Assembly: GCF_006381105.1 (NCBI RefSeq)
Contig: NZ_VDET01000002.1
Location: 372,001 to 436,000, forward strand
Length of the DNA stretch: 64,000 nucleotides
Origin: Flavicella sediminum
Lineage (GTDB): Bacteria > Bacteroidota > Bacteroidia > Flavobacteriales > Flavobacteriaceae
Direction of reading: 5' to 3'
Of this stretch, positions 5,234 to 59,149 are shown piece by piece. Numbering within the stretch: position 1 is the first letter of the stretch; each line of letters starts with the position of its first letter. The translations under genes and the position numbers were made by a program. The notes beneath the pieces were generated by a model, which saw only the letters and a list, made by a program, of their open reading frames with translations, ran no database searches and was not told the DNA's origin.

Positions 5234-5278
5234 CAAGATATATTTCGCAACCTTATTCTGTAACCTGTACTGTACCGA
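5234..5278 (-). promoter_or_regulatory. Shared-motif promoter for GH5-GH3-GH2 operon
   Basis: Plus strand 5264-5278 reads ACCTGTACTGTACCG, a degraded second half of the TCCTG-N5-TCCTG repeat. On the minus strand a -7-like box (TATCTTGC, 5234-5241) starts 22 nt after the repeat. The repeat ends 58 nt before the GH5 start codon. Confidence 0.6.
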
Positions 5279-5293
5279 TAAGTCCTAAAAAAA

Positions 5294-5329
5294 GAAAAGA
5301 CCGAAATAAAAATATCTCGATCTTTTCTG
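5294..5329 (-). terminator. Rho-independent terminator after susCD
   Basis: The arms are AGAAAAGACCGA (5294-5305) and TCGATCTTTTCT (5318-5329). They pair over 12 bp, with one G-U pair in the minus-strand transcript. A T-rich run (TTTTTTTAGG) follows on the minus strand. It lies just past the SusD stop at 5353. Confidence 0.7.
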
Positions 5330-5352
5330 AACTACTAAAACAAAACTAACTA

Positions 5353-6945
5353 TTATCTATATCCATTATTTGTTGGATCTGATTCTAATAAGATAGGATT
5401 ATTTATCAATTCTTGTAAAGGAATAGGCAATTTGACATGCCACGGTTTGATGTTAGCGGCAGGGGTCCAAAATCGATATTCTAAATTAGAAACGACATCT
5501 GTTAAAATCCCCCATCTTATCAAGTCATATCTTCTCCAAGCTTCACCAGCTAATTCCCATTTACGTTCATCGTAAATAGCTTCCCTAAACTCCTGTTGTG
5601 TTAGTCCTTTAATTGCTTCTGCCTCAACAACGGTAGCATAAGATCGTTCTCTAATTTCTTTGATGTATTCGTAAGCAGCAGTTGGATTACCACCTGGGCG
5701 TTCATTTTCACATTCAGCCGCCATTAAATGCACATCTGCTAATCGAAAAACCATTCTATTGTCAGAGTGATTGAAACGAGGAGAAGTATCCAGTGATAAG
5801 TTCATAATCTTAGCCATATAAGGAAAATTCAAATCATACCCTAAATAACTATCCATGATATTTAAGGGTCTTCTTAAATCATTTACTGGAAATTTCTCTG
5901 CAAAATCCATTGATGCTATTTGCAAACCTGTACCGTTAAACGACTCTCCTCTTGCTGTTAGAGCATCTTTCAATGCGTTTCTATCTGCGGTGTTTTTGGG
6001 TTCATCACGTAATCTAGGATTAAACATACTTGGCCTCCAATTTCCATTTCCAAAAACAGGGTTTAAATTACCATCTGCATCAGCTACCCCTTCTTCAAAC
6101 TGTCCTCTAATATCTTTTGCAAAATCTAAAGACCAAATTATTTCAGAATTGTATTCATTATTAGGATCAAATACAGCTGCATAGGTGGACTGTAAACTAT
6201 GTGGTGATTGATTGATAATTTCCAAACACTTTGTTAAAGCTTCGTCCCATTTTTTCTGTTGCATTAAAATTTTTGCTTCAATTAATGCTGCTGCCCATTT
6301 AGAACCTCTACCGGCTTCACTCCCCGTATATGCCCCTTTTAAATTGGCTTGTGCAAATTGTAAATCTTCTAAAACGGCATCAATTATAATTGCTTCATCA
6401 ACTCTTCCTAGCGAACTTATTTCTTCAAGAGTAAGCACTTCCGTATAAAAAGGAGCAGCTCCCCATAAATTTGTAATGTGCCAATAACACAATGCTCTTA
6501 CAAATCTAGCATCAGCAATTATATCGGTTTGTGATACTTGTGAAATAGCTTCATTACCAGTTACTCTTTCAATTATAACATTTGTATTTAAGATTACTCT
6601 GTATAAATCTTTCCAAGTATCAGATACACTCATTTTTTGAGTTGACACATCTGCTGAAGCTTCTGTTAACGAATAATTCCCCATTGGCTCGAAGAAATTA
6701 GCCGAACGATTTGGTTCAATAATATCGGCTCCATTGTCATAAAAAACATCAAGGCCTACCTGACCATAAATTGAATTGTTTTTTAAAATCGCATAATACC
6801 CATTCATAAACTGTCTGGCATCACTTTCTGAAGCAAAAAATGTTTCAGGTGCGATTAAGGCTCTTGGGTCTTCTTCTAAAAAATCTTCACAAGCAAAACA
6901 GGTGAAAATTATGAAGGCGTATAAAAATATGTTTTTTGTTCTCAT
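5353..6945 (-). CDS. susD: SusD/RagB family glycan-binding lipoprotein
   Basis: 530 residues. The lipoprotein signal ends FTCFAC followed by EDFLEEDP, the standard SusD N-terminus with acidic residues after the Cys that favour surface display. The helical TPR-like scaffold covers the N-terminal half (LYRVILNTNVIIERV, ARFVRALCYWHITNLWG). The C-terminal SusD region has VFRLADVHLMAAEC and the terminal WELAGEAWRRYDLIRWG motif. SusD proteins sit on the outer surface, bind the glycan and form the lid of the SusC transporter. The gene is 23 nt downstream of susC, so the pair is cotranscribed. A terminator follows at 5294-5329. Confidence 0.97.
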   Translation of the reverse strand: MRTKNIFLYAFIIFTCFACEDFLEEDPRALIAPETFFASESDARQFMNGYYAILKNNSIYGQVGLDVFYDNGADIIEPNRSANFFEPMGNYSLTEASADVSTQKMSVSDTWKDLYRVILNTNVIIERVTGNEAISQVSQTDIIADARFVRALCYWHITNLWGAAPFYTEVLTLEEISSLGRVDEAIIIDAVLEDLQFAQANLKGAYTGSEAGRGSKWAAALIEAKILMQQKKWDEALTKCLEIINQSPHSLQSTYAAVFDPNNEYNSEIIWSLDFAKDIRGQFEEGVADADGNLNPVFGNGNWRPSMFNPRLRDEPKNTADRNALKDALTARGESFNGTGLQIASMDFAEKFPVNDLRRPLNIMDSYLGYDLNFPYMAKIMNLSLDTSPRFNHSDNRMVFRLADVHLMAAECENERPGGNPTAAYEYIKEIRERSYATVVEAEAIKGLTQQEFREAIYDERKWELAGEAWRRYDLIRWGILTDVVSNLEYRFWTPAANIKPWHVKLPIPLQELINNPILLESDPTNNGYR

Positions 6946-6968
6946 ATCTATTCTTTAATTTATAGTTG

Positions 6969-9900
6969 TTAAAAAGTTACATTTAACCCAAGTGTTAAAA
7001 CTCTAGGATTTGGATAGGATCCATTATGATAACCTTGTGCAATATTTCCTAAACCTGTTCTTCCAAAATTACTTGCTTCTGGATCAATTAATCTAAAGTT
7101 TGAGAATAGTAACAAATTATTACCTGAGAAATAAATTGTGGCATTTTTAATAGAGTCTAAGCCCCATTTATCAACAGGAACGTTGTAAGCCAATTTCAAT
7201 GTTTTAAGACGAATATGAGATCCATCCTCCACATATTCTGAATTTGGAGGTGTTCCAGTTACGGAATCTCCACCTGCCCTAGGAATGTTTGAAGTTGGAT
7301 TTTCAGGAGTCCAACGATTTGCTACATCTCCAAATTTGGTTGTTTCACCACGATTAAAATAATGGTTCCGGGTTCTTAAATTAAACACTTCATTCCCTGT
7401 AGTTCCTTGAAAGTAGAATGAAAAATCCCAATTTTTATACCGAAGTGTATTTTCAAAACCGAAAATCAAATCTGGTGTGGGGTCGCCTAAAACCACATAA
7501 TCTTCACTTGAAATAATCCCATCTCCGTTAATATCATCATAGCGTGCTCCTCCGACAACAGTAGGATCTGTAATTCCAGAAGCATCAATTTCATCTTGAC
7601 TTTTCCATGTTCCTAAATATCGTGCACCTGTAAACACGGGTACTGACTCTCCAACAATTAAGCGAGTATTCCCAGAACCTAAAATCTCATCAACAGTAAC
7701 GTCTATAAAATCTACATCTCCTAAATCTAAAATCTTATTTTTATTCGCCGATAATGTCAAAGTAGATTTCCATGTGAAATGATCATTGGTCACATTGGTA
7801 GAATTTACAAGAAATTCCCATCCTTTATTTTCCAATGAACCTATGTTTTGTAACTGACTTGTAAAGCCTGTTTGTCTAGGAATTGTTACATCTAATAATA
7901 AATCTTCCGTTTTTTTGTAGTAGTAATTCAATTCTGTAAATACTCTACCTCCTAAAAATGAAGCTTCCAAAGCAATATCTAAAGAATTTGTAGTTTCCCA
8001 TTTCAAATTAGGATTTGCCGGTCTACCTAAAGTTAACCCAGGATTTTCAGCCCCACCTAATGTCGTATTCGCTTCTGTCAACAAACCCAATGTTCTATAA
8101 GCTCCAATTGCTTGGTTCCCTGATTTACCAAAACTAGCCCTTAGCTTCAAGTCTTTAAATACATCTTGATCTTGCATAAAAGATTCTTCGCTAACCTTCC
8201 AAGCCGCTGCTACAGATGGATAAAACTCGAATTTATTTCCTTCTGCAAAAACAGAACTACCGTCACTTCTTCCCACCAAAGTAAATAGATATTTATCTTT
8301 AAAAGTATAGTTCAATCTTCCAAAGAATGAAGCAACCTGAAAACCAGAATAATCACTTGATACAACAGATCTACTTGGCTCAGAAAAACCCAAATTATTA
8401 TACCCCGCAGCATCACTTGTGATACCATAGGCTTCTGCCATGGCACTTTCTGTGTATACTTTTTGAAAAGAAGCACCTGCAAGTGCAGTAATGCTATGAT
8501 TCTTATTTATATCTGTTTCATACTGAATTGTATTTTCATTGTTCCAACCATTAGTAGCAACAGTTCTAACACTTGCACTACCTCCATCGGTAACGCCAAT
8601 AGACAGGAAATTTGGTGACTGACTTGAAGTAAACCTGTTCTGTTTGATATTGTTAATTTCCGGACTAAAAGTTGATCTAACAGTCCATTTTGGTGAAGGA
8701 CTATATTCTAAATAAACCGTTGCCAACAAATTATTAGAAAATGTTTGATTGGTATTTAAGGCAATGTTAGCAATTGGGTTTGAAAACGGAGCTCCAATCA
8801 CATCATCGAAACCATTATAAGAACCATCTGCATTGTAAATAGGTTGCGTTGGTAAAGTTGCAAAGGCATTTCCAAAACTAGCCAAACCATTGTCTTGCAT
8901 AATTCTTGAATAATTAACTCTAAATCCTGTTTTTAATTGATCACTAAGTTTATAATCTAAATTGGATCTGAAAATAAATTTTTCAATACCAGAACTTTTC
9001 ACAAGTCCGTCTTGGTTAAAATAACTTAGTGAATTATAATAATTCACATCATCCGTAGATCCTGATATGGAAACATCCGCATTGTATATTGGTGATGCAT
9101 CCAATAATAAGTCATACCAATTGTTATTTGGGTAATCTGAAGGATTTCCCGGAAAGGGTTCAGCTGCCGATCTAAAACGAGCACTTTCGTTCGTAAAAGC
9201 AATTTGCTCTACCTGTGAAAGCATGTGTGGTAATTCTGGAACCAATTGCATACTTGTATAAAGATTTACGCTTACTTCAGGTTTTCCTGAACCGGCACTT
9301 CTACCGTTTTTTGTGGTAACCAAAACCACACCATTGGCACCTCGAGAACCATATATCGCAATAGAAGAGGCATCTTTTAAAATCTCAATAGATTTGATAT
9401 CATTTGAATTGATATTGTTCAAATTGAAATTTGTCCCTACTACAATACCGTCTATAACCCAAAGAGGCTCATTACTACCAGTAATAGAGTTCCCACCCCT
9501 TACTCTTATAACCGTACCTGCTCCAGGTGCACCACTAACTTGAGTTACTTGAACTCCAGAAGCTCTACCTTGCAATGCTTGATCAACTCTGGCTACTGGA
9601 CTTGATGTAATGTCTTTGGCGCTAACAGAAGATACCGAACCTGTCAAATCAGATTTTTTCTGGGTTCCATAACCAATTACAACAACTTCGTCTAATTGAT
9701 TATCTGATTCTAATAAAACTCTTAATTTTGATTGGTTTCCTACCAATACTTCCTTTGTTGCGTAACCAACATAGCTAATGACAAGCACACTTTGTGCATT
9801 TGCCTTAATTGTAAAATTTCCATCAAAATCGGTACTCGTACCAACAGAAGTTCCTTTTAATTGAACCGTTGCTGCCGGCAGTGGTTGGCCATCGGCAAAT

Positions 9901-10016
9901 ACGGTTCCTGAAACCGATTGAGCATTTGAAATTGACACGCATGCCAATACAAAAACAGCATATATCCAAGTTTTCCTAAAACTCAGAAAGGTTTTAATTG
10001 TGGTTTTTAATTTCAT
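6969..10016 (-). CDS. susC: SusC/RagA family TonB-dependent oligosaccharide transporter
   Basis: 1015 residues. The signal peptide ends SISNAQ. A carboxypeptidase-D regulatory-like domain follows (about 34-110, VSGTVFADGQPLPAA to YVGYATKEV), then the TonB-box/plug junction DEVVVIGYGTQKKSDLTGSVSSV (shown in part; about residues 110-132), the plug with VIDGIVVG and SIEILKDASSIAIYGSRGANGV, and a 22-strand barrel ending NPRVLTLGLNVTF. It imports oligosaccharides across the outer membrane using TonB energy. It is the first gene of the susCD operon and has the most elaborate copy of the shared promoter repeat upstream (10076-10110). This is the only SusC in the window, so the locus appears to rely on one transporter unless others lie outside. 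Confidence 0.97.
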   Translation of the reverse strand: MKLKTTIKTFLSFRKTWIYAVFVLACVSISNAQSVSGTVFADGQPLPAATVQLKGTSVGTSTDFDGNFTIKANAQSVLVISYVGYATKEVLVGNQSKLRVLLESDNQLDEVVVIGYGTQKKSDLTGSVSSVSAKDITSSPVARVDQALQGRASGVQVTQVSGAPGAGTVIRVRGGNSITGSNEPLWVIDGIVVGTNFNLNNINSNDIKSIEILKDASSIAIYGSRGANGVVLVTTKNGRSAGSGKPEVSVNLYTSMQLVPELPHMLSQVEQIAFTNESARFRSAAEPFPGNPSDYPNNNWYDLLLDASPIYNADVSISGSTDDVNYYNSLSYFNQDGLVKSSGIEKFIFRSNLDYKLSDQLKTGFRVNYSRIMQDNGLASFGNAFATLPTQPIYNADGSYNGFDDVIGAPFSNPIANIALNTNQTFSNNLLATVYLEYSPSPKWTVRSTFSPEINNIKQNRFTSSQSPNFLSIGVTDGGSASVRTVATNGWNNENTIQYETDINKNHSITALAGASFQKVYTESAMAEAYGITSDAAGYNNLGFSEPSRSVVSSDYSGFQVASFFGRLNYTFKDKYLFTLVGRSDGSSVFAEGNKFEFYPSVAAAWKVSEESFMQDQDVFKDLKLRASFGKSGNQAIGAYRTLGLLTEANTTLGGAENPGLTLGRPANPNLKWETTNSLDIALEASFLGGRVFTELNYYYKKTEDLLLDVTIPRQTGFTSQLQNIGSLENKGWEFLVNSTNVTNDHFTWKSTLTLSANKNKILDLGDVDFIDVTVDEILGSGNTRLIVGESVPVFTGARYLGTWKSQDEIDASGITDPTVVGGARYDDINGDGIISSEDYVVLGDPTPDLIFGFENTLRYKNWDFSFYFQGTTGNEVFNLRTRNHYFNRGETTKFGDVANRWTPENPTSNIPRAGGDSVTGTPPNSEYVEDGSHIRLKTLKLAYNVPVDKWGLDSIKNATIYFSGNNLLLFSNFRLIDPEASNFGRTGLGNIAQGYHNGSYPNPRVLTLGLNVTF

Positions 10017-10045: not shown

Positions 10046-10110
10046 TAAAACTATAGCAAGACCTTTTCAATACCATCCTGCTCTAGCCTGCTCTATCCTG
10101 TACTGTCATG
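10046..10110 (-). promoter_or_regulatory. susC promoter with four-unit TCCTG-type repeat array
   Basis: On the plus strand four TCCTG-like pentamers follow each other at 10-bp steps: TCCTG (10076), GCCTG (10086), TCCTG (10096), TCATG (10106). The minus-strand -7 box TAGTTTTA lies at 10046-10053, 22 nt after the proximal pair. The proximal repeat ends 60 nt before the susC start. Other sites in the window have two units. The rest of the 398-bp gap (10017-10414) holds the terminator at 10279-10330 and no further gene. Confidence 0.75.
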
Positions 10111-10414: not shown

Positions 10415-12079
10415 CTATTGCGGTATTAGTTCAATAAGTTTTACACTGTGCGGCTCAAGTTCTACTTTTAAAGTAATTTTAGTATCCCTGACTTCAATAA
10501 GTGTACCATCAATAGTCTTGGGCAACTTTGCCAAGTTTTCATATTTAGTCTTATTAGCGTCAAATACACTATTCCAGCCATCTTCAAAATAATCATCTGG
10601 TCTATTTCCATATATACGAGCACTACTGGTTGTTTTATTTGCAACTCCTGCGGCTCTTACATCTTTATACAACTCATTCATAAAAACACCATGCGTCTTA
10701 TCAATCGTCCATTCGTTCATCTTCCATGTACTAGTACTCGATACTTCACCTCCTTCAATTACCGGATACATAACTTTACTTGCAGTACTACTTCTTGTTG
10801 TATTGTGATTGTATGCCAATATGTAAATTCTACCATTTTTTACAACTGGAATTACACCTGTAAATCCACTAAAATTATGTTCTGCAACAAGTCGATTACC
10901 CCCTTCCATTTTCAAGAACATCTCTGTAACATTTCTTCTTCCTGTAGCTAATCCATCTGTAGATTCCTGCCCCCAATCATATATTTCTGAAATCCTATAT
11001 TGATATGCCATTTCTGCTATGGTAGCATACCAACTTGCCCCAACTTCAGTAGCATCACTTAAACTTAGTCCTCTTTTTCCATTATCACCTTTTAATATCC
11101 CAAATTCCTGAATATCAAAAGGAATATCTTTAAACTGCGGATAACTATTTAATTTAGCTCTATAGGGCGCTATTTTTTCTTCTAGTTTTATTGTTTTCTG
11201 ATCTAATTTCTCATAGTACGACAAACAGAAAAAGCTCATCTTTGTTCCTTTGGTTCCCGTAGCATAATTGGTTCCTGTAGCACAGTGATCAATAATATCA
11301 GTCGTCCAGGTAGCAGCACCTTCTGTCAACAAGTTTCCTGGTCCAATGATAGCATCAGGAATTACTTTTAAAACTTCATCCACCGTTATGTCATAATGTT
11401 TGAAATATTCATCCCTTGTTCCTCTCCAATGGTGTGGTGTATAATTAGGTTCTGTGGCAACACGAAAACGCCAAGTTTTCACTGTATTCTGACCAAATTC
11501 TGTGATTAGTGTTTGTAAAAAAGCATTTATATATTGTCTCCAAAGATCATAATTAATTGGCGGCTTAGAATTCCCATAAGTATCAACTACTCGATCTCCG
11601 CTCATATCCCAAGGCACATTGTCTAATACGATCCTAGGTTTAAATCCGGTTTTCATAAAAGCTCTCATACTAGTAAGTAGGTCGCTGAAATCTGTAATAA
11701 TTTTGCCAGAAGCATCAACTCCTTTATAAAAATTATTTTTATCATCAGTTCTTCCTCCTAAGACACGAACCAAATTATAGCTTTTTACATAGGGCTTAAT
11801 ACCAACTAGACTAGAAGTAAATCCAGTTCCCGTAAATCGTGTTTGATTAATCATTGGTCGTGTAGACCAAAAGTTATACAATTCTCCGACTACAGCACCT
11901 GTATTTATAGCAACCACTTTATCAGGATCAACGGTAACAGGACCTTCTGGCTCAGGCTCTTCTGGTTTTGGTGTTACAACTATTTCTTCTTCAACCGGGT
12001 CACTTGAGCACGAAAAGAACAAGGCACTTGTGATGCAAAAAGCTACACTAAAAAGTATTTTTCTATTGATTACGAACAT
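10415..12079 (-). CDS. GH39-like (clan GH-A) glycosidase, surface lipoprotein
   Basis: 554 residues. The lipobox is ALFFSC (Cys24), followed by a Pro/Glu-rich linker (PKPEEPEPEGP, about 37-48) that may hold the enzyme away from the membrane. The TIM barrel has the acid/base in FRVATEPNYT (Glu210) and the nucleophile in FDIQEFGIL (Glu325), the GH39 pattern. A beta-sandwich follows (about 410-554). GH39 members include beta-xylosidases, and a GH39 enzyme is reported in the Formosa ulvan PUL, so xylose removal is plausible (inference). It has its own promoter motif (12124-12168) and a strong terminator, so it is monocistronic. Confidence 0.82.
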   Translation of the reverse strand: MFVINRKILFSVAFCITSALFFSCSSDPVEEEIVVTPKPEEPEPEGPVTVDPDKVVAINTGAVVGELYNFWSTRPMINQTRFTGTGFTSSLVGIKPYVKSYNLVRVLGGRTDDKNNFYKGVDASGKIITDFSDLLTSMRAFMKTGFKPRIVLDNVPWDMSGDRVVDTYGNSKPPINYDLWRQYINAFLQTLITEFGQNTVKTWRFRVATEPNYTPHHWRGTRDEYFKHYDITVDEVLKVIPDAIIGPGNLLTEGAATWTTDIIDHCATGTNYATGTKGTKMSFFCLSYYEKLDQKTIKLEEKIAPYRAKLNSYPQFKDIPFDIQEFGILKGDNGKRGLSLSDATEVGASWYATIAEMAYQYRISEIYDWGQESTDGLATGRRNVTEMFLKMEGGNRLVAEHNFSGFTGVIPVVKNGRIYILAYNHNTTRSSTASKVMYPVIEGGEVSSTSTWKMNEWTIDKTHGVFMNELYKDVRAAGVANKTTSSARIYGNRPDDYFEDGWNSVFDANKTKYENLAKLPKTIDGTLIEVRDTKITLKVELEPHSVKLIELIPQ

Positions 12080-12123: not shown

Positions 12124-12168
12124 CAAATTTCATTAATTAAAATAAAAAAAGTGTCCTGAGGTGTTAGG
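12124..12168 (-). promoter_or_regulatory. Shared-motif promoter for GH39 gene
   Basis: Plus strand 12154-12168 reads TCCTGAGGTGTTAGG. The first pentamer is intact and the second is poor. The minus-strand -7-like box GAAATTTG (12124-12131) is at the standard 22-nt spacing. It is the weakest member of the set but sits where expected, 75 nt from the start. Confidence 0.5.
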
Positions 12169-12236: not shown

Positions 12237-13202
12237 CTATTCGTACTTTATAATTTTTTTGAAGAAGTGCACATCTCGATCTGTACTTGAAATAAAATAG
12301 ATACCATTAGGAAAGTTAGTCATATCGATTGTTTCTGATGCGTTCGAAGTAGTAAGTTTTTTTAGAACAGCCCCATAGGCATTTGAAATTATCAAATTTG
12401 AATTAAGAGGTAGGTTTGCTAAAGCAAGTTTAGCTTTTGTCGGATTGGGAAATATTTTTATTTCTTTTATTTTCTGGGCATCAACAGATAAAGCTTCGTA
12501 GCAACTAGATGCTTCATTGTCTAAATCGAAAGCAGAACTATCGGAAATGCCATTTTTTCTTAAAACCATTTTATCTATAAATAAATTTGAAGACCTTGCA
12601 TCTACCGTGATTGTGTATTCTTTAGCTTCATTAAAAGTTACAAATACTCTGTGTGCAACGTGGTCATTTGTATTGGTTACAAATACCCAATCCAAGGTAT
12701 TCCCAAAAGCCTTTATAAAATTATCTGTGGAAGTTCCAGCAGCACAGGTCAAATCATCACTTGAGTTACAGTAAGGTTTAGGATACACTTTTGCTCCATT
12801 TTTCACCCCATAAAAATCTTCCGCATCAATTTTTAACCAGGCATCATTATGTTCTCCTTTGGAGATCCCTAGGCCTACTTTCATTCTCCATGCAAAACGA
12901 TAAGTCCCAGGATTGTTTATTTTAACATTGTAAACAATTGGCGCATTAGAAAGACTATTAAATGACTCAGAACCGGACCAATACAAATAATTTGTATCTC
13001 TATTTTCTCCATTTATAGTTTCCGTTTCCGTACCAATTTTCCATCTGTTATCATTGATAACTCCTGATTCCATCTCAATAGTTAACAAGCCTTCTTTTTC
13101 TTCGAAAGGAAGTAAACCATTACAAGTAGCTTCTTGAGATAACATGGGCATTAATGGTATCAAGACTAAATAAATTACTGTTTTTCTAAGCTGTTTTAAC
13201 AT
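12237..13202 (-). CDS. T9SS-secreted protein with carbohydrate-binding-like beta-sandwich
   Basis: 321 residues. An N-terminal signal peptide is followed by one beta-sandwich domain (about 38-220). The segments LTIEMESGVI, NPGTYRFAWRMKV, HRVFVTFNEAKEYTITVDARSS and FIDKMVLRK resemble CBM6/CBM35-type modules: an acidic start, ligand aromatics and a final FIDKM strand. A T9SS type A sorting domain is at about 245-321 (IKIFPNPTKAKL, NGIYFISS, FFKKIIKYE). There is no catalytic domain, so it is probably a secreted glycan-binding protein. It is monocistronic with its own motif promoter. Confidence 0.75.
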   Translation of the reverse strand: MLKQLRKTVIYLVLIPLMPMLSQEATCNGLLPFEEKEGLLTIEMESGVINDNRWKIGTETETINGENRDTNYLYWSGSESFNSLSNAPIVYNVKINNPGTYRFAWRMKVGLGISKGEHNDAWLKIDAEDFYGVKNGAKVYPKPYCNSSDDLTCAAGTSTDNFIKAFGNTLDWVFVTNTNDHVAHRVFVTFNEAKEYTITVDARSSNLFIDKMVLRKNGISDSSAFDLDNEASSCYEALSVDAQKIKEIKIFPNPTKAKLALANLPLNSNLIISNAYGAVLKKLTTSNASETIDMTNFPNGIYFISSTDRDVHFFKKIIKYE

Positions 13203-13225: not shown

Positions 13226-13270
13226 CGAAAATAATTTGTTAGTTCAAAGATAGCATCCTGTACAATCACG
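13226..13270 (-). promoter_or_regulatory. Shared-motif promoter for T9SS carbohydrate-binding protein
   Basis: Plus strand 13256-13270 reads TCCTGTACAATCACG. The minus-strand -7 box TATTTTCG (13226-13233) starts 22 nt after the repeat. The repeat ends 54 nt before the start codon at 13202. Confidence 0.72.
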
Positions 13271-46876: not shown

Positions 46877-49800
46877 TTATTTCTTTATTATTTTTACAAA
46901 AATCGGTTTATCTGAATTCAATTTCACAAAGTACAAACCCCTTGACTCATTCACTATATTCAATACTACTTTACCTTCTTTTACTTCGTAAGTTTTTGAG
47001 GCTATTAGTTGTGAGTATACATTATAAATCTCCAAGTAAATAGTATCTAAACTATAAGGGACATACAATATAAAAGTCCCCTTTGTTGGATTAGGATAGG
47101 CTTTGATATCTTCTAACAAATTAATTTGCTTTAAAAGTTCTCCTTGACAAGCAGATTTACTTTGAACCTGCAGATTATCTCCATGATCTACATTAATTGA
47201 AAAATTAGTTTCGTTGGTTACTAAAACAGTTTCTCCATTTTTAAAAACCGTATAGGGTGCGGTTCCTTCCAAAATACGAACTACGGCCGAATGCTTATTC
47301 ACATCAATTTTACCACTTAAATTAGCTCCTCCTACAATTGTGACTTGATAACACTGCTCAAACGATTCTTCTTCCACAGCTATACACAAGTCATACGTAC
47401 CGGGACCTAAGTTTTCAATACTTGTTTTTTTCGAAAAATGATAGGAATTTCCAGCTATACTAGCAACGTAATTACTCGTTACGGCAGCGTCTATTTGAAT
47501 ACTTCCATTTCTCTTAGAGGCACATGTTTCTCCAATAGATTCTATTAAGAAATTCTCAGCAGTAATTGGAAAGGTGTACGCATAATCTAAAGCAAGTTTT
47601 TTGATTCCTTTTCCTTCCTGATCTGCTTTAAAAACTTCTCCATTAAAACGAAGCTCTTCTCCTTCTCCTATGTACATTGACACATCGGTAACTCCATTTT
47701 TCACTTTCAATCGAACCACGGCGAACCTCCCTTTAAAACTAATATCATATGCTTTTAAGATACTATTCCCTGTCGAACTATCATTCGATAAAATTATATC
47801 TGTAACTCTTTCTCCATTTACTTCAGACACCACTTTAACTCCGACTACTTTGTCATTATAAAAAATAGTCGACGTTTCTATTATGGTACTTTCGGAATTT
47901 CCAGAGGATTCATAAATTGCTATAAAAGGTTTATCCCAAGCTTCTCCATATTTACGCATGATAAACATTTGCGTATCTTTTTTATCATAGCCATTTTTTA
48001 CATCTTGTGTTGGTGGAGCTAAAGCAGAACTATATTCTTTATCAACACCTCCCGGAACGCTCACATGTAAATAAGCATTCGTTGCCTGTAAATCAAATCT
48101 AGCCGTAATAGCATCACTCGTAAGTGCCGATGTTTTTGGATTCGTATAATATTGCCAACCTGGTTGATTACGAGGGGCTCCTGACTCTGCTGGATAACGA
48201 TTTGGAGTATTGGATAAAGCAAGTGAAGCTTCACCTGTTTTTATTTTCATTACATCTCCTAAGCCATGAAATAAATAATCATGAAAATTATTTGTTGCAT
48301 TAGAAACAGATCGAAATATATCAACATAATAACCCGAGGTTGGACTTGTGCGTATGATGCTATTTGTTCTTTGTTGGTCTAAATCATTTATACCATCGTC
48401 TAAAAACTGCGTAGAAAAACTAAAATTTTCTGCTATTGGATTTGCTTTTACTTTTGGTTCACTTGCTTGCAATACAATGGGATCCACAATATTATCCCAG
48501 GTTCCAGAACTTGGAACACCACGTTTAGTAGTTCCATTTACTATAATGGTATTATGAGCGGCATGAGACACAGCGTATTCTTCATGAAGCGTTGTACCAT
48601 AACCAGCAGCATCCCCACCATGATCTGGCCCGATTACATAACCTGCACCATAAAACTCCATATCTAACCCTGTTGCATGGGCATGTACATAAGTACCACC
48701 TCCAGTATAATACATGAGCCCATACTGTTCATTATCTGCCTTTACATAATTACGTTGCATTACAACACCAGCATGCGTAGCTGTAACTGTTCCATATTGA
48801 GGTTCGCCTAGAGCACTTACTTCGTCGCCTATATTAACACCCCATAATAATTGTAGTGGGTTGTTCCATTCTAGTCGCTGGTCTTCTATAAGGGGTGCGT
48901 AGCCTCCTGCTGCTGTATAAATTTTTCTAAGGGTTGAAGCCGCTCTTTCTTTTATATCCATATACCCATTTTTAGCTGCAATTGCCAAAACATTTCGAAA
49001 AATAGGTGCATGATCATTGAAATCTCTGCCAATATCTCCATAAGCCATAGTAGCCCCATTTGGATATAAAAAATTCTCATAAATAAAGATACTCTCTAAC
49101 AGATCTTTATTATTATCTAATAAATTTAATTCTGGTTTGTAGCGATCTGCAATACTTAAAGCTTGTAAAAAAATAGAATGTGTAAACTTAGCATAACCTG
49201 TAGATTCCGGCCATAAACGATCCCCGTCGCTAAATCGATCCAACATCCAATTTATCCCAGGTTGTTTAGAATTGGCTGCCCCATTTAGCAATTTATCAAA
49301 ATAAGCAGCTCTAATTGCGTCATCTTCCATACTCAAAACGCTATACAAACCTCCTGGTAATTCTAAAACAGGATGATTAGAATTATTCCCACCTACTTGT
49401 ATCACATTATCAGCCATCACTTCAAATGCTTTTTGCGAAGTAGTAAAATTAAACGGTACATTTGTACCACTATCCAAATCATAAACTGTAGTTCCTTGTT
49501 TTGACAAAAAAGGTTGTACAAAATCATAAATCATAGCAACTCTTGGAAAAAGCTCACGTGGTGGAATTAAATGATTAAAACTCCCCGTATAAAACTCGAA
49601 GCTTAAAGGATCCTGAACACTTATTAATTTCACATATTGATTTAAAATATCTGCAGATAACTGAGCATAGTCTTCATCTCCTGTTAAGTAATATAAAAAA
49701 GACGATTCTGCTGCTGCATTAAGTCTATTACGGTGTTGTGTTCTGTCACCGGGTATTGCAGGAATTTGATTTAATATAGCAGTTGGATTGGAACTATGAC

Positions 49801-50698
49801 TCGATTTAAGACTAGATTGCCTTGTTTTAAGCTGGTTAAACAGACTACTCGCCCATGTAAAGTTTGCAATATTATCCAATATCTTTTGCTTATCTGAATT
49901 TGTTACCCATATATGTGGGTGTACTAAGGATTTTGTAACTGGTTTAGGAGCATAATCATTTAAAAAATCTTTGTACTCAAAATTATCAAAATCTAAAGTA
50001 GCTAAAGGTAAAAATGAATTATTTTGTAATTTAAAACTACCTAATTCTAAGTCAGGATTATTGGCACTAATATCATTAAAAACTTTTGTTGTTCCTATCC
50101 ATATTTCCCAAGTATCATTTGCAATAGTTTCTGTACTTGAATTTGGAGCTTCATAAGTTTGTGAAGTACCCGAATTATTTGCGACAAATGTAATTGTTTG
50201 ATTCCCTGAAAACTCAGATGAACTTGTACCTGAACTTCCAATTAACTTTATAAAAAAGCTCCCTGAGGTTTCACTTATTCCTAGTCCAAAAGCACAAAAT
50301 GATTTTGTAATTGAAGAAGCTTCGTTTGAGTAAGCTGGTCCAAAATAAAAAGGGATTTCTCTACGATTATCTGGGTGATTGGGATCATTATTTGTGACTT
50401 CAAAATCGAATTTTAATTGTATAAATGTTGGAGCTGGAGAAAGTGCAGGATTTGGTGTACGGTAAAAATAAGATGAAGAGACTGCCTTTTTTTCAAACCT
50501 TAATTTACCCCCGATTATACTTGTAGGTGTATTAGAGCTATTACTAACACCACTAAATTTCCCGACATCCGGCACACTGCTAACATAATCAGAAACTGTA
50601 GTTGATTCGCTAAAATTTTGTTTAAAAAGCTGAGCTTTTAAGGAAAAAGAAACGACTAATATGAAAGAAAAAATCAGAATATTCTTCACCATTTTCAC
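46877..50698 (-). CDS. T9SS-secreted heparinase II/III-like polysaccharide lyase
   Basis: 1273 residues. The signal peptide ends FSLKAQ. An N-terminal beta-sandwich (about 23-245) precedes the helical toroid (about 255-600, HIWVTNSDKQKILDNI, FLYYLTGDEDYAQLSADILN, GGNNSNHPVLELPGG). The heparinase II/III beta-sandwich follows, with the diagnostic HAHATGLDMEFYGAGYVIGP and HAAHNTIIVNG (about 665-735). SprB-like or Ig-like repeats (about 1040-1180) and a T9SS type A sorting domain (AYPNPTKGTFILYV, SRGLYFVKL, VKIIKK) end the protein. Family members cleave uronic acid-containing glycans by beta-elimination. Some ulvan lyases belong to heparinase-like families, but I cannot assign a CAZy number with confidence. 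Confidence 0.85.
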   Translation of the reverse strand: MKMVKNILIFSFILVVSFSLKAQLFKQNFSESTTVSDYVSSVPDVGKFSGVSNSSNTPTSIIGGKLRFEKKAVSSSYFYRTPNPALSPAPTFIQLKFDFEVTNNDPNHPDNRREIPFYFGPAYSNEASSITKSFCAFGLGISETSGSFFIKLIGSSGTSSSEFSGNQTITFVANNSGTSQTYEAPNSSTETIANDTWEIWIGTTKVFNDISANNPDLELGSFKLQNNSFLPLATLDFDNFEYKDFLNDYAPKPVTKSLVHPHIWVTNSDKQKILDNIANFTWASSLFNQLKTRQSSLKSSHSSNPTAILNQIPAIPGDRTQHRNRLNAAAESSFLYYLTGDEDYAQLSADILNQYVKLISVQDPLSFEFYTGSFNHLIPPRELFPRVAMIYDFVQPFLSKQGTTVYDLDSGTNVPFNFTTSQKAFEVMADNVIQVGGNNSNHPVLELPGGLYSVLSMEDDAIRAAYFDKLLNGAANSKQPGINWMLDRFSDGDRLWPESTGYAKFTHSIFLQALSIADRYKPELNLLDNNKDLLESIFIYENFLYPNGATMAYGDIGRDFNDHAPIFRNVLAIAAKNGYMDIKERAASTLRKIYTAAGGYAPLIEDQRLEWNNPLQLLWGVNIGDEVSALGEPQYGTVTATHAGVVMQRNYVKADNEQYGLMYYTGGGTYVHAHATGLDMEFYGAGYVIGPDHGGDAAGYGTTLHEEYAVSHAAHNTIIVNGTTKRGVPSSGTWDNIVDPIVLQASEPKVKANPIAENFSFSTQFLDDGINDLDQQRTNSIIRTSPTSGYYVDIFRSVSNATNNFHDYLFHGLGDVMKIKTGEASLALSNTPNRYPAESGAPRNQPGWQYYTNPKTSALTSDAITARFDLQATNAYLHVSVPGGVDKEYSSALAPPTQDVKNGYDKKDTQMFIMRKYGEAWDKPFIAIYESSGNSESTIIETSTIFYNDKVVGVKVVSEVNGERVTDIILSNDSSTGNSILKAYDISFKGRFAVVRLKVKNGVTDVSMYIGEGEELRFNGEVFKADQEGKGIKKLALDYAYTFPITAENFLIESIGETCASKRNGSIQIDAAVTSNYVASIAGNSYHFSKKTSIENLGPGTYDLCIAVEEESFEQCYQVTIVGGANLSGKIDVNKHSAVVRILEGTAPYTVFKNGETVLVTNETNFSINVDHGDNLQVQSKSACQGELLKQINLLEDIKAYPNPTKGTFILYVPYSLDTIYLEIYNVYSQLIASKTYEVKEGKVVLNIVNESRGLYFVKLNSDKPIFVKIIKK

Positions 50699-50805: not shown

Positions 50806-50850
50806 TAAAACTAATTTTCTAGTCAACAGATATCATCCTGTACTGTCCTG
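50806..50850 (-). promoter_or_regulatory. Shared-motif promoter for heparinase-like T9SS gene
   Basis: Plus strand 50836-50850 reads TCCTGTACTGTCCTG, the consensus copy. The minus-strand -7 box TAGTTTTA (50806-50813) starts 22 nt after it and equals that of susC. The repeat ends 138 nt before the start codon. Confidence 0.8.
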
Positions 50851-53683: not shown

Positions 53684-53689
53684 AAATAA

Positions 53690-55178: not shown

Positions 55179-57107
55179 TTAATCCACCCTCCTTCTTTGA
55201 GGCCAAAGTTTTATTGCATCGTTTATGATTCTCTTGCTATACTCTTTACCAAATTTATCCACTGCATCATCTGTTGTGAATTTTTTGTTTTTGAAAAACA
55301 CCCAATCTTGTTTTGTCAAATATTCATCCGTATGAGAATACTGCAAGGCATTCAAACCGAACAAAAACACGAAACCATCTCTTGCCGATTTTGTATCATC
55401 ATATAGATATGCAAATGCGTTTTTTTTATCTCCTGAAACCGCTAATGCTTGAGCCAATATCAATCGGTTTACAGGAATTTTTTCTTTTGCTATTCGTTTT
55501 TTTAATTCCTTTTGAAGTTTTTTATCATCCTTTGCTATTCTAAAAATCCCATAAGCGCCCCAGTAACGAACAATTGGATCTTTATCGCATAGAAATTTCA
55601 AGAAGTCCTTTTTATTAGAAACATCCCCTTTGGCACAAATTTTTGCTATCGGTAAAATTCTCTCAATAGCATAATCATCACTTTGCGCAAATTCATAAAT
55701 GGTCACATATTTTTTACCCGTACCAACAAGATCATGAAACATAGGCTCAGGTATCAATCCGATATCCTTAATCTCTAGCATCCAACGATCTAATTCCTTT
55801 GACAACTCTACTAATTTTTGCTGATACTCCGTTTCATTAGCGATACTTTTAATATGATAAGGATCCTTTTTTGTATTAAATAACTCCACTGGATTTTTCG
55901 GTTTATAGAATTGTGCTTGCACAGCATTTGATGTTCCATTTGCAAAACTCTCTTCATTGGCTCTCCAATTTTGTTGCACCGTATATCCATATCGAGTTGA
56001 ACGTCCACGAGGTCTATGCGGAACAAAATTTTGAATCAGATAGTACTCGCCATCTGTCACCGCTCTATTAAAATCATAACGTTCAGACATACGATCTCTG
56101 TAAAAATGTACATACTTAGGTTGTGCTTCCATCTCTTTTCCTAAAAACACTTTACCTTGCATTTTTTCAGGAACAGGCAATCCTAAAACCGATACGATTG
56201 TTTTTGAAAAATCTACAAATCGCACTATTTTATCTTCTGTGCTTCCTGATTTATAATCTGGAACTAGGTGCTGCCACTTTTTAGGAACATGCACTAAAAA
56301 AGGTACTTGTGTTCCTACATTATACAAATAACGTTTCGAACGAGAAAGCATACCTCCGTGATCGGAAAAGAAAAATACGATTGTATTATCATCTAGTTTT
56401 TTATCCTTTAGTTCTTGTAACAGACTGCCTACTTTTTTATCCATTAAGGTAATTAAATCATGAAAACGTGCCCAATCTTCTCTAACTTCTGGAACATCTG
56501 GATGGTAGGGAGGCAACACAATACTTGAAGGATGTATTCTTGATTCTTTAGGTATCTCACCTCGCTCAACATACCCTTTAATTTTATCTGCTGCCAGCTG
56601 ACTTTCATGTGTTGTTTTGATGTTAAACACGGAAAAAAAAGGTTGTCCTTCTTTTCTGTTTTTGTAATGTGCTTTGCTATTAGATTCACTCCATAAAGTA
56701 CGATCTGTTTCGTAACTAGAATTGTAATCTCGTTTATAGTTATTGGTACAATAGTAACCTGCTTCTTTAAATATTTTTGGATATGCTGGAATTACAGATG
56801 GAAGCAGTGTATTGGTTCTAAAATTATGACTTCCAATAGTTGGAGCATACATTCCTGTTAAAAGAGTAACTCGAGCAACTCCACAAACGGGCGCATTGGC
56901 ATAGGCATTTGTATATCTAATACTTTGATCTGCTAGTCTGTCTAAGTGAGGTGTATGTGCTTGTTCAAAGCCATAACTCCCTATGTATGGACTAATATCT
57001 TCACAGGTAATCCAAAGCACATTTGGTTTATTTTGACTTTGGACTGTACTTAACAGCACATTACTTGTAAAGAGTATGGCACATAACACTACTTCAATTT
57101 TTCTCAT
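55179..57107 (-). CDS. S1 family sulfatase with C-G-V-A-R site and helical C-terminal extension
   Basis: 642 residues. The signal peptide ends STVQSQ. The sulfatase opening is NVLWITCEDISPYIGSYG, resembling heparan N-sulfatase-like S1 members. The maturation site is PVCGVARVTLLTG (Cys75), in which the usual Pro is Val77 and Arg79 is kept. FFFSDHGGMLSRSKRY is the second metal segment. Residues about 480-642 form a helical extension with HEAT-like pairs (DPIVRYWGAYGIFRIAKDD, KIPVNRLILAQALAVSGDKK). It is the first gene of its operon, with a motif promoter at 57188-57232. Confidence 0.92.
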   Translation of the reverse strand: MRKIEVVLCAILFTSNVLLSTVQSQNKPNVLWITCEDISPYIGSYGFEQAHTPHLDRLADQSIRYTNAYANAPVCGVARVTLLTGMYAPTIGSHNFRTNTLLPSVIPAYPKIFKEAGYYCTNNYKRDYNSSYETDRTLWSESNSKAHYKNRKEGQPFFSVFNIKTTHESQLAADKIKGYVERGEIPKESRIHPSSIVLPPYHPDVPEVREDWARFHDLITLMDKKVGSLLQELKDKKLDDNTIVFFFSDHGGMLSRSKRYLYNVGTQVPFLVHVPKKWQHLVPDYKSGSTEDKIVRFVDFSKTIVSVLGLPVPEKMQGKVFLGKEMEAQPKYVHFYRDRMSERYDFNRAVTDGEYYLIQNFVPHRPRGRSTRYGYTVQQNWRANEESFANGTSNAVQAQFYKPKNPVELFNTKKDPYHIKSIANETEYQQKLVELSKELDRWMLEIKDIGLIPEPMFHDLVGTGKKYVTIYEFAQSDDYAIERILPIAKICAKGDVSNKKDFLKFLCDKDPIVRYWGAYGIFRIAKDDKKLQKELKKRIAKEKIPVNRLILAQALAVSGDKKNAFAYLYDDTKSARDGFVFLFGLNALQYSHTDEYLTKQDWVFFKNKKFTTDDAVDKFGKEYSKRIINDAIKLWPQRRRVD

Positions 57108-57187: not shown

Positions 57188-57232
57188 CTAATATAGGTTT
57201 CAAATAGCCTAGCAGTATCCTGTACTATACTG
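57188..57232 (-). promoter_or_regulatory. Shared-motif promoter for sulfatase-sulfatase-GH78
   Basis: Plus strand 57218-57232 reads TCCTGTACTATACTG. The minus-strand -7 box TATATTAG (57188-57195) starts 22 nt after it. The repeat ends 111 nt before the start codon. Confidence 0.72.
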
Positions 57233-57337: not shown

Positions 57338-58153
57338 TTATTGTTTTATTACTTTCACGGTATGTTTTCCACTTATTCCTATTATTTCTACAACATATAC
57401 GCCACTCGGAAGTGTACTTACATCTGTACTAAAAGATACTTGTCCCTCAACTTTTTTGGTTAAAATTTCACTCCCAAGTAAAGAATATACTGAAATTTGC
57501 TTTACAGTAGTAGGAAGCCCATTGATAATTAACTGATTATTTACAGGATTTGTAACAATAATAGATGCTGAATCAAATTCGTTCGTACTTAATGCAGATA
57601 CAAATTTAAATTCAAGTTTATCTATTCCTCCACCATCGAATTGCACAGGGTCACCTGCTGCAGATGGCGCTACACCGTATCTCGAACCACCTTCACTTGG
57701 TGTTTTAATAAACAACGCATCGTTTCCACCATTATTGGTAGCTGATTTTCTTCTTTGAAACTGATCATAACCATAGTTTTCAGCGGTGTTGTCACTTATC
57801 GGATCGCCTAGTCTAACCGTAAGCGTAGTATTTTTACCACTTATATTTGCAGGTATTGTACCCATGGTATAGTTTCCTTCACCAGCAATAGTTGCGGTAA
57901 TTTGCATATAACCGGTAGATGCTGGTGATACATGATCTACTATAGCCCATACTTGTTTTTCATCATCGCCTGGTAATTTTGCAGCCCACTCTAAATCACC
58001 TGAAGCATTAATTGTCATAAAAAGATCCTCACCAGGTACGCCAATTGTATACCAACCATTTTGAGTCCATTCTTCATATACTTGAGCTTGTACCTGAAGC
58101 GTCATAAATGTTAAAAATAAAAAAGAGGTCATTTTAAATGTAATTTTTTTCAT
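57338..58153 (-). CDS. T9SS-secreted small protein, possibly trefoil glycan-binding (paralogue A)
   Basis: 271 residues. The signal peptide ends LQVQAQ. The middle (about 25-190) is beta-rich, with NGWYTIGVPGEDLFMTINAS and EKQVWAIVDHVSPASTGYMQ, resembling one ricin-like trefoil repeat, and LDFK-like EFKFVSALSTNEF before the tail. A T9SS type A sorting domain ends it (VNNQLIINGLPTTVKQISVY, GVYVVEIIG). The signal peptide and the VSALSTNE segment are very similar to the next upstream gene, so the two are paralogues. The function is not recognised. It has its own motif promoter and terminator. Confidence 0.7.
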   Translation of the reverse strand: MKKITFKMTSFLFLTFMTLQVQAQVYEEWTQNGWYTIGVPGEDLFMTINASGDLEWAAKLPGDDEKQVWAIVDHVSPASTGYMQITATIAGEGNYTMGTIPANISGKNTTLTVRLGDPISDNTAENYGYDQFQRRKSATNNGGNDALFIKTPSEGGSRYGVAPSAAGDPVQFDGGGIDKLEFKFVSALSTNEFDSASIIVTNPVNNQLIINGLPTTVKQISVYSLLGSEILTKKVEGQVSFSTDVSTLPSGVYVVEIIGISGKHTVKVIKQ

Positions 58154-58179: not shown

Positions 58180-58225
58180 TAAATATACGTACAGTCCGTA
58201 GTTCAAAGAGTCCTGTAGTATCCTG
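58180..58225 (-). promoter_or_regulatory. Shared-motif promoter for T9SS paralogue A
   Basis: Plus strand 58211-58225 reads TCCTGTAGTATCCTG, a perfect pentamer pair, with a further CCCTG at 58230. The minus-strand -7 box TATATTTA (58180-58187) starts 23 nt after it, the only site not at 22. The repeat ends 58 nt before the start. Confidence 0.76.
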
Positions 58226-58260
58226 AAAGCCCTGCTTTTTTTGTTATAAAATGTATAGAA

Positions 58261-58296
58261 AAAGGGCTATCCTAAACAAATTTGGAATAGCCCTTT
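58261..58296 (-). terminator. Hairpin after the 253-residue T9SS protein
   Basis: AAAGGGCTATCC (58261-58272) pairs with GGAATAGCCCTTT (58284-58296), with one bulge. It follows the stop at 58316. The T-run on the minus strand is weak. Confidence 0.55.
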
Positions 58297-58315
58297 CACA
58301 CTGATTACTATATTA

Positions 58316-59077
58316 TTAATTTGAAATAAGCACTTTATTTGAGTTTGCTGTTTTTAAAACATAGGTTCCTTTTGCAAAAGCCGATAAGTCGATACTTTTT
58401 CCTTTTCCATTTAACAATTCAGCACCTAACAAAGAATATACTGACCATTCCGTTTCAATATTCAATTTATACTGACCATTGTTTGATGGGTTTGGATACA
58501 CCGTTAATTCATTTGACTCAAGCACATTTTCTTTAGTACTTAATACAGAAACAAAAACGAAGTCAAAGCTTATGGTACTACCTCCATTTAGCTTTACTGC
58601 ATCTGTTTCATCTGCAGAGCCAACTACTCCAATTCTTCTTTTTGCGATACCTGACCATGAAGTTCCTGTTGCATCACTTTCCAAAAAAATTTGAGTTCCA
58701 GAACCTCTAGTAGGATTCCATTGATCATGTTGCCCTGAACCTCCAGCAGCATTCCCTTTGCAACCAATTGCTGGAAATGCAGTACCCGATGTAACTAAGG
58801 TCTCTATAGCTCCTTTTCCTGAAATACTAGAAGTAATAGAATAATGCGATCCGCTAGGGTGATTGTCTATTTCAAATAATTGCGTATCACTACCAGGTGC
58901 TTCAGCTTCATAGGTTAAATCTTCTGTAGAACTTGACTGTGTTAAATAAAGACTCGTTCCTTGTTTTTTAATTTTATAAACACCTGTTGTCCCAGTAACA
59001 AAAGCTTGCGCTTGCACCTGAATACCAGCCAATACAAATACTAAAAATGCGATAATTTTAAATGTAATTTTTTTCAT
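58316..59077 (-). CDS. T9SS-secreted small protein, possibly trefoil glycan-binding (paralogue B)
   Basis: 253 residues. The signal peptide ends IQVQAQ. TGVYKIKKQGTSLYLTQSS and DTQLFEIDNHPSGSHYSIT resemble the start of a ricin-like trefoil, in which a bound-ligand statement is followed by a 'QLFEI' strand. The tail is a T9SS type A sorting domain (LTVYPNPSNNGQYKL, KGTYVLKT). FVFVSVLSTKENV parallels the segment before the tail in paralogue A. No catalytic motif is seen. It is likely a secreted binding protein made in quantity, given the strong motif copy at 59105-59149 and a monocistronic arrangement. Confidence 0.7.
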   Translation of the reverse strand: MKKITFKIIAFLVFVLAGIQVQAQAFVTGTTGVYKIKKQGTSLYLTQSSSTEDLTYEAEAPGSDTQLFEIDNHPSGSHYSITSSISGKGAIETLVTSGTAFPAIGCKGNAAGGSGQHDQWNPTRGSGTQIFLESDATGTSWSGIAKRRIGVVGSADETDAVKLNGGSTISFDFVFVSVLSTKENVLESNELTVYPNPSNNGQYKLNIETEWSVYSLLGAELLNGKGKSIDLSAFAKGTYVLKTANSNKVLISN

Positions 59078-59104
59078 AAAAAAGTGGTTTTAATTAAGTT
59101 ACAG

Positions 59105-59149
59105 CTAAATTACACAGTCGCAACACTCTAAGAATCCTGCACTGTCCTG
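59105..59149 (-). promoter_or_regulatory. Shared-motif promoter for T9SS paralogue B
   Basis: Plus strand 59135-59149 reads TCCTGCACTGTCCTG, a perfect pentamer pair. The minus-strand -7 box TAATTTAG (59105-59112) starts 22 nt after it. The repeat ends 58 nt before the start codon. Confidence 0.78.

Follow-up and report, generated by a model that had tools for sequence, protein, structure and literature searches.

A tandem-repeat operator at the promoters of an ulvan locus in Flavicella sediminum, probably read by a GntR-type rhamnose sensor

The window is a 64,000-nucleotide stretch of the Flavicella sediminum genome (contig NZ_VDET01000002.1, positions 372,001 to 436,000). It holds the core of a locus for ulvan, a green-seaweed polysaccharide of which rhamnose is a main sugar. 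A RhaT-family rhamnose symporter gene (24226–25278, minus strand; PF06379, E 1.6e-70) lies in the cluster, downstream of a sulfatase gene (25307–26764), and an AraC-family regulator is encoded on the plus strand at 39907–40791 (PF12833, PF02311). In a preliminary description, twelve minus-strand promoters within 5234–59149 were reported to share one architecture and to precede the genes of the locus core. All twelve elements were present, the operator stands in front of the core genes, and eleven of the twelve starts were reproduced; the first element starts at 5263, not at 5264.

The operators and their −7 boxes, all on the minus strand, were as follows. The first (5233–5277; operator 5263–5277, CGGTACAGTACAGGT; spacing 22 nt; box TATCTTGC) stands before a GH5 gene (3806–5206). 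Three overlapping registers in 10-bp phase (10076, 10086, and 10096; feature 10046–10110) precede susC (6969–10016), the register at 10076 having a spacing of 22 nt and the box TAGTTTTA. The weakest site (12124–12168; operator 12154–12168, CCTAACACCTCAGGA; −7 box GAAATTTG), with the lowest training score (17.2), precedes a GH39-family gene (10415–12079). A T9SS-tail protein gene (12237–13202) follows the operator at 13256–13270 (CGTGATTGTACAGGA; box TATTTTCG; feature 13226–13270), a GH43 gene (17798–19585) the one at 19643–19657 (CATGATAGGTCAGGA; box TATATTTG; 19613–19657), and a GH78 gene (21202–24057) the one at 24188–24202 (CATGACAGTACAGGA; box TAACTTTA; 24158–24202). The operator at 26751–26765 (CATGACACATCAGGA; box TATTTTCG; 26721–26765) precedes the sulfatase gene 25307–26764, the longest-ORF start of which is over-called. 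Before an ulvan-lyase-type gene (42773–45985, PF24208) the operator lies at 46098–46112 (CAGGATAGTGCAGGA; box TAATTTTA; 46068–46112), before a T9SS-tail protein gene (46877–50698) at 50836–50850 (CAGGACAGTACAGGA; box TAGTTTTA; 50806–50850), and before a second sulfatase gene (55179–57107) at 57218–57232 (CAGTATAGTACAGGA; box TATATTAG; 57188–57232). The last two are found before a T9SS-tail protein gene (57338–58153; operator 58211–58225, CAGGATACTACAGGA; spacing 23 nt; box TATATTTA; 58180–58225) and a T9SS-tail/lectin protein gene (58316–59077; operator 59135–59149, CAGGACAGTGCAGGA; box TAATTTAG; 59105–59149).

The element had been described as a pentamer pair, TCCTG-N5-TCCTG. The direct repeat is there, but its unit is 8 bp, longer than a pentamer: the operator is 18 bp long (CAGKAYAGTRCAGGATAS), with the 8-bp unit repeated at a 10-bp period, and its half-sites are two tandem 8-mers (CAGKAYAG-TR-CAGGATAS). 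Identity of the 8-mers at a direct shift of 10 was 5.62/8, so the repeat is direct, not inverted. An inverted-repeat reading centred on GTAC, inspected by eye only, was rejected on its mismatching arms. Exact CAGGA-N5-CAGGA was found in four sites (46098, 50836, 58211, and 59135), five sites had one mismatch to it, 13256 had two, and 5263 and 12154 had three.

With up to one mismatch allowed, this pair occurred 12 times in the window (shuffle mean 1.88, largest 6), always on the minus strand, with 0 matches on the plus strand. These matches were nine of the described sites, two overlapping susC-promoter registers, and an in-gene match at 47606. When the core was combined with the −7 box (up to three mismatches), 12 matches were obtained vs 0.37 by chance (largest 2), namely ten of the described sites (12154 and 58211 were missed), one overlapping register, and 17046, which is probably a chance match. 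In the whole genome, 11 of the 14 matches to CAKGAYAGTRCAGGA with up to one mismatch fell within C12:328443–442627, or 2.5% of the genome; the similar density elsewhere that the preliminary description had named as refuting its element therefore did not occur. At three mismatches the pattern is unspecific (331 matches in the whole genome vs 263 for the reversed pattern). A matrix was built from 19 own sites, 12 of them in the window and 7 beyond it, and was thus trained on this locus; the in-gene match 338218, without a −7 box, was aligned at first as a 20th site and dropped before matrix building. At a score of at least 17, the matrix gave 25 matches, all 19 training sites among them, in a 190-kb region around the window vs 0 in the reversed sequence.

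The distance from the operator to the TAnnTTTG-like −7 box was 22 nt in eleven promoters and 23 nt in one (58211), as described. The usual distance of TTTG before the −7 box is 19–21 nt. The claim that all twelve promoters lack TTTG or TTG at −33 held for eleven, in which no TTG was found 15–26 nt before the box; 58211 has TTTG 16 nt before it. The proximal half-site does occupy the −33 position. The element also recurs in other Flavobacteriaceae, where TAnnTT stood at exactly 22 nt in 145 of 189 core-chosen non-own sites. As the filter for these sites itself demands CAGG at positions 10–13, the 100% CAGG in the set is by construction, and the sites, which include those of related species, are non-independent. 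In geometry only, the arrangement is that of a class II activator, with the site centred near −41 at a fixed distance and the −33 box replaced.

A candidate regulator, GntR1, is encoded at C12:329656–330702 and was invisible to the preliminary description because the gene lies outside the window. GntR1 is a GntR-family protein with a winged-helix domain (PF00392, 43.4 bits vs cut-off 27) and a LacI-type sugar sensor (PF13377, 33.2 bits vs cut-off 26.5; Peripla_BP_3 domain). Foldseek gave LacI and RbsR as the best matches for the model of an orthologue with 85% identity, and the AraR DNA-binding domain was among the PDB sequence matches, so that GntR1 classifies as an AraR-like GntR/LacI chimera. 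No aminotransferase-like sensor of the MocR type was seen by Pfam or fold, both of which give the LacI-type sensor; NCBIfam MocR models match the DNA-binding domain only. GntR1 is not a DeoR-family protein like DeoR-type RhaR, having a GntR domain instead. Inverted repeats are typical, not universal, for the GntR family, and as most GntR regulators bind them, the direct repeat was counted against the assignment to GntR1. A close paralogue, GntR2 (C12:363212–364252), lies inside the ulvan locus, and the genes for FBPase and GntR1 are found behind the top-scoring own site, 328443. Around two other own paralogues, no site was present in the fetched 20 kb (C30) and 16 kb (C5), although the recognition helix of the C30 paralogue is nearly identical to that of GntR1.

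Loci of GntR1 orthologues were fetched by protein alone; 67 were returned, and four distant ones were left out, leaving 63 (58–85% identity). The site was present in 61 of these (117 sites vs 5 in reversed sequence). The rhamnose catabolism gene rhaEW was found in 50 loci, with the site directly upstream in 49 and inside an over-called ORF start in the 50th (L210). The regulator thus stands beside rha catabolic genes (RhaEW and RhaI were identified) with the site in their promoter, as in a RhaR role. In a second set, which overlaps the first in genomes, the site was at 17/17 rhaEW promoters in 18 loci (in G125 inside an over-called start), and the 20 loci of this set together had 34 sites vs 1 reversed. 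Among 397 genomes, GntR1 (at least 400 bits) was present in 30 of 44 with the exact motif vs 48 of 353 without it (Fisher 5e-14, from manually read lists). A second Fisher test with in-ORF motif matches removed was not used, the removal being one-sided and including the uninspected G330. In the 14 motif genomes without GntR1, eight of ten inspected matches (G020, G192, G320, and G330 left out) were inside ORFs, and those of G314 and G150 were outside. All 20 genomes behind 24 motif-chosen regions had GntR1. Within the fetched stretches only, a GntR1/GntR2 relative was present in 7 of these 24 regions and HTCS relatives in 5, which was counted against a GntR regulator.

Operator and recognition helix were found to covary. 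Among ten genomes that carry rhaEW but only distant relatives of GntR1, an altered operator was found at the same place in five, and the distant relatives in those five carry a changed recognition helix. No operator was found at rhaEW of G247, G024, and G207, which have only distant relatives, nor of G037, where the start is uncertain; G020 was unreadable. The wing change R to P alone was rejected as the cause of the operator change because the L237 orthologue has P in the wing and keeps CAGGAT-type operators. The helix change E to V is the better candidate.

In the own genome, 23 promoters of the ulvan locus have the operator in front of them. Six off-locus sites precede genes for a PL28 ulvan lyase, a GH106 rhamnosidase, a 3-keto-disaccharide hydrolase-family protein, RhaEW (a gene divided between two contig ends), and two related proteins. 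The element would be the operator of a GntR1-type regulator (GntR family, LacI-type sugar sensor) whose common target in Flavobacteriaceae would be the rhamnose operon with rhaEW, rhaI, and further genes. Because the same operator stands before the 23 locus promoters, the polysaccharide genes would respond to rhamnose inside the cell or to a derivative, and the ulvan gene set is probably controlled through one short repeated DNA signal, read by a rhamnose sensor. To this reading from sequence, a GntR regulator with its operator and a rhamnose-responsive regulon extended to the ulvan locus, whatever the sign of control, we assign a probability of roughly 0.78.

A dimer would bind the two tandem 8-bp half-sites on one face of the DNA, centred at about −40.5, and, when sugar-bound, stand in for the missing −33 box by contacting RNA polymerase. 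The activator on two elements one helical turn apart proposed earlier agrees with the tandem half-sites, the fixed geometry, and the shared operator; activation itself is plausible, if unproven. Given this regulator, operator, and regulon, it is favoured over repression with some confidence because the spacing is fixed and the −33 box is missing. The fuller account has about even odds: a GntR/LacI-chimera rhamnose sensor would activate in a class-II-like manner from 10-bp tandem half-sites replacing the −33 box, and spread of the promoter module would have put a monosaccharide regulator in overall command of a polysaccharide regulon of unusual size, with 23 promoters across some 125 kb and, farther away, genes for a lyase and a rhamnosidase.

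Repression lifted by rhamnose, through the same GntR regulator and operator, is possible but rather unlikely. Repressor sites usually float relative to the promoter, whereas the spacing here is rigid (the 145 of 189 sites at exactly 22 nt), and eleven of the twelve window promoters have no TTG in the −33 zone and so look weak without help. Binding over the −33 region would nevertheless block RNA polymerase, and the GntR protein AusR represses most Zobellia alginate genes and is released by oligosaccharides, as the available part of a review describes (PMC8286568). That AusR, the best precedent for a locus of this kind, is a repressor was counted against the main reading.

The AraC protein 39907–40791 or a hybrid two-component regulator had been proposed as the binder, and this is improbable; a GntR protein tracks the signal instead. 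The genes for HTCS1 (C12:357030–361094) and HTCS2 (C12:457268–461302; domains confirmed by profile) do flank the ulvan locus, HTCS1 has a possible site upstream (361303, score 22.4), and in four genomes an HTCS2 relative and a site are about 1 kb apart. Published HTCS sites, in the part of the study available, consist of two boxes spaced by about 21 bp (PMC3878776), but no second box was found at −21 or +21 over the 19 own sites, and 0/189 had one at +21, the only one of these offsets counted in that set. A strong extra copy at −20 was present in the own susC promoter alone; among the 189 other sites, seven had one at −20 and seven at +20. An AraC-type ORF was found in only 4 of the 50 loci with GntR1 and rhaEW, and HTCS1-like and HTCS2-like proteins each in 1 of the 63 GntR1 loci. 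In the 24 motif regions of other genomes, HTCS1 relatives were found in one, HTCS2 relatives in four, and a close relative of the AraC protein in one, with two further AraC-type ORFs by HMM. HTCS1, HTCS2, and the AraC protein were rejected as the common regulator, being missing from most motif loci. An alternative (ECF) sigma factor using the element as its upstream element, though consistent with the fixed spacing to the downstream box, is very improbable, as that box is TAnnTTTG, which in flavobacteria belongs to the primary sigma factor, and a 10-bp direct repeat tightly linked to a GntR gene is unexpected for a sigma factor.

The GntR1-type regulator can be compared with known systems as far as the available parts of the sources describe them. 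Regulators of L-rhamnose, RhaR/RhaS and others, belong to the AraC, DeoR, and LacI families (Rodionova et al. 2013, PMC3870299); "GntR" and "Flavobacteria" each have 0 occurrences in the available text. GntR1 would resemble them in controlling rhamnose catabolic genes including RhaEW, and some of them co-regulate rhamnose-oligosaccharide genes; Bacteroides RhaR differs in being AraC-type with a 21-bp repeat. A GntR-type rhamnose regulator would thus be added to the three types of that comparative study. Like AusR of Zobellia galactanivorans, compared by review description only (PMC8286568), GntR1 would be a GntR-family regulator that places an algal-polysaccharide locus of flavobacteria under the control of a breakdown product, although AusR is an alginate repressor. 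With the MocR-subfamily activators GabR, PdxR, and TauR (PMC5320631), which often act on direct repeats, GntR1 shares the GntR-type DNA-binding domain and would share the direct-repeat site and activation; they have an aminotransferase-like sensor where GntR1 has a LacI-type one. Direct-repeat sites upstream of polysaccharide-locus operons are also known from Bacteroides HTCS regulons (Ravcheev et al. 2013, PMC3878776), which differ in having two boxes (12–16 bp in examples) about 21 bp apart, an AraC-type DNA-binding domain, and a hybrid-kinase sensor. For the breakdown of ulvan by marine Flavobacteriaceae, the analysis names a candidate regulator, its operator, and a likely inducer, and the matrix with its fixed promoter geometry points to rhamnose-polymer genes elsewhere, here the distant PL28 ulvan lyase and GH106 rhamnosidase. 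It also suggests that control of a large polysaccharide locus can depend on a released monosaccharide and not on an oligosaccharide-sensing hybrid kinase.

The window carries a large ulvan-type locus (SusC/SusD, GH78, GH106, GH43, GH39, GH5, GH3, GH88, an ulvan-lyase-type protein, sulfatases, RhaT, and T9SS-tail proteins). The twelve CAGGA-N5-CAGGA-like elements listed in the preliminary description were all recovered on the minus strand, the first at 5263 instead of 5264; the element at 12154 was weak. As had been claimed, the TAnnTTTG-like −7 box began 22 nt past the 15-mer in 11 elements and 23 nt past it in one. Matches in the window were clearly more numerous than in shuffles: 12 vs a shuffle mean of 1.88 for the repeat core, and 12 vs 0.37 for core plus −7 box. 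The density was not similar genome-wide: in the 4.58-Mb genome, 14 matches deviated at no more than one position, and 11 of them lay inside C12:328443-442627 (C12, the contig of the window, which occupies C12:372001-436000). Twenty own sites were aligned, among them one in-gene match, removed afterwards; conservation was seen in the core and the −7 box, and no column exceeded 0.40 bits in the 45 nt upstream. The longest-ORF start of the sulfatase 25307-26764 falls within the operator, the true start being probably ~52 nt downstream of the element. Two large proteins of the ulvan locus, 40802-42760 (652 aa, relatives in genomes G378 and G169) and C12:351787-353709 (640 aa), had no Pfam match at E 0.001.

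A matrix was built from 19 own sites of the ulvan locus (core plus −7 box, spacing 21–23) and, with the training locus also being the locus scanned, gave 25 matches at a score of at least 17 in the own 190-kb region and 0 in reversed sequence. These correspond to 23 promoters, since three matches are overlapping registers of the susC promoter (10076-10110), where four CAGGA-like pentamers stand in 10-bp phase. Twelve promoters are inside the window and 11 outside, the latter preceding FBPase-GntR1 (site 328443), sulfatases (334906 and 363151), GH2 (343889), an alginate-lyase2-family protein (351758), a BNR_4/T9SS-tail protein (356336), rhaM (356855), HTCS1 (361303), the gene C12:435214-436569 (436646), a sulfatase-GH78 fusion (442613), and a second SusC (453948). 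The fusion (C12:438986-442498, L036:8986-12498) joins a sulfatase to a GH78-type rhamnosidase and has relatives in several other motif regions. Thirteen off-locus regions of the own genome, each picked by pattern matches, were also scanned, and six had a site: before a PL28 ulvan lyase, a GH106 rhamnosidase, a 3-keto-disaccharide hydrolase-family protein, and the rhamnose catabolism genes rhaEW, and at L038:9951 and L040:1816, upstream of related 677- and 646-aa proteins. The last two operators have an identical 16-bp core; one of the two proteins was weakly transglutaminase-like, below cut-off.

The 189 unique sites from other genomes, picked by core alone (reversed control, 4), gave the consensus CAGKAYAGTRCAGGATAS, with TAnnTT at exactly 22 nt in 145. 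The likeness of the halves was highest at shift 10 (3.94 bases out of 5, and 5.62 out of 8), and the repeated unit is therefore 8 bp. Extra core-like copies were found at −10 (13), +10 (14), −20 (7), and +20 (7).

Besides the AraC gene (39907-40791), the locus flanks hold two HTCS genes (C12:357030-361094 and C12:457268-461302) and two genes that combine a GntR domain with a Peripla_BP_3 sensor, GntR1 (C12:329656-330702) and its close paralogue GntR2 (C12:363212-364252). The reading we prefer, at a probability of about 0.78, is that GntR1/GntR2 is the rhamnose-responsive regulator at the operator. The exact motif occurred in 44 of 397 family genomes; by lists compiled by hand from search outputs, GntR1 (at least 400 bits) was present in 30 of these 44 vs 48 of the 353 that lacked the motif (Fisher 5e-14). 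When 29 motif matches were inspected, 8/10 in genomes without GntR1 lay inside ORFs vs 1/19 in genomes with it. In 24 regions around exact matches in other genomes (1.2 Mb, 20 genomes), 103 matrix matches scored at least 17 vs 2 in reversed sequence, which shows clustering and not independent discovery because the regions were picked by motif. All 20 genomes had GntR1, with a GntR1/GntR2 relative inside the fetched stretch in only seven regions. Six genomes (G378, G153, G169, G145, G374, and G163) carried relatives of the ulvan locus, with sites preceding several of the same genes.

Starting from the protein is a fairer test than motif-chosen regions. From the public genome collection, 67 GntR1 orthologues were returned and 63 kept, four distant ones being omitted (sources: Algibacter, Polaribacter, Winogradskyella, Lutibacter, Tamlana, Maribacter, Nonlabens ulvanivorans, as well as uncultured and other organisms). 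A site was present in 61 of the 63 loci (exceptions L193 and L224), with 117 sites vs 5 reversed. rhaEW was found in 50 loci, with a site directly upstream in 49; a second set of 18 loci, sharing genomes with the first, had the site at 17/17 rhaEW promoters, in one case within a gene start that was over-called. RhaEW clears the cut-off of TIGR02632, and the gene next to it matched rhamnose isomerase models strongly, but under their cut-offs. The own rhaEW spans two contig ends, with the site upstream.

HTCS relatives occurred in five of the 24 motif regions, and the HTCS genes may form a second regulatory layer. The AraC protein, earlier put forward as the binder, is unlikely, with a close relative in one of these regions and an AraC-type ORF of any kind in 4/50 rhaEW loci. 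Within the preferred GntR reading, either GntR1 or GntR2 may act at the ulvan locus, since their recognition helices are nearly identical. Two more GntR1 paralogues, L171:9885-10931 (contig C30, 67%) and L172:14757-15845 (contig C5, 65%), sit among sulfatase-like ORFs (weak BLAST labels), and the operator was not found around them in the fetched 20 and 16 kb, respectively.

A search for rhaEW covered 80 genomes, of which 79 had no GntR1 reaching 400 bits and the remaining one was the own genome; rhaEW was found in 11, own included. By coordinates, 8 of the 10 others had a GntR relative of 41–45% identity within a few kb. Nine of the ten were readable (all but G020), and five of the ten had an altered operator at unchanged distance to the −7 box: CAGGA was CAGAA in both halves in G357 (CAGAACTGTACAGAAC) and G222 (CAGAACGGTACAGAAC), and the first half was weaker in G108 (CTTAACAGTACAGAAC), G384 (CTTAACAGTGCAGAAC), and G307 (CCTAACAGTTCATAAC). 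The recognition helix in these five was SRDT(I/V)V(R/K)AY vs SRDTVEKAY. No operator was found at the rhaEW loci of G247, G024, and G207, nor at that of G037, where the gene start is uncertain.

The predicted structure of an 85%-identical GntR1 orthologue (pLDDT 88.6, pTM 0.70) matched LacI and RbsR, consistent with a sugar effector; solely from gene neighbourhood, we infer rhamnose or a derivative.

Class II activators sit around −40.5. With the −7 box at −12 to −5, as a passage on Flavobacterium psychrophilum places it (PMC9723704), the element would lie at about −49 to −32, centred on −40.5. This centre and the absence of a −33 box from the element promoters favour activation rather than repression, and the regulator is probably an activator. 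That a GntR/LacI-type rhamnose sensor is the activating master switch of a large polysaccharide regulon has about an even chance.

Neither an operator of this form nor a GntR-type rhamnose regulator was found in the open-licence literature searched, which omits most subscription papers, and a term search of Rodionova 2013 (PMC3870299) returned no such regulator; absence from the literature covered does not prove novelty. AusR is described as a GntR repressor of alginate genes, which makes repression a possible mode at the operator here. The MocR subfamily is described as including GntR activators that act on direct repeats.
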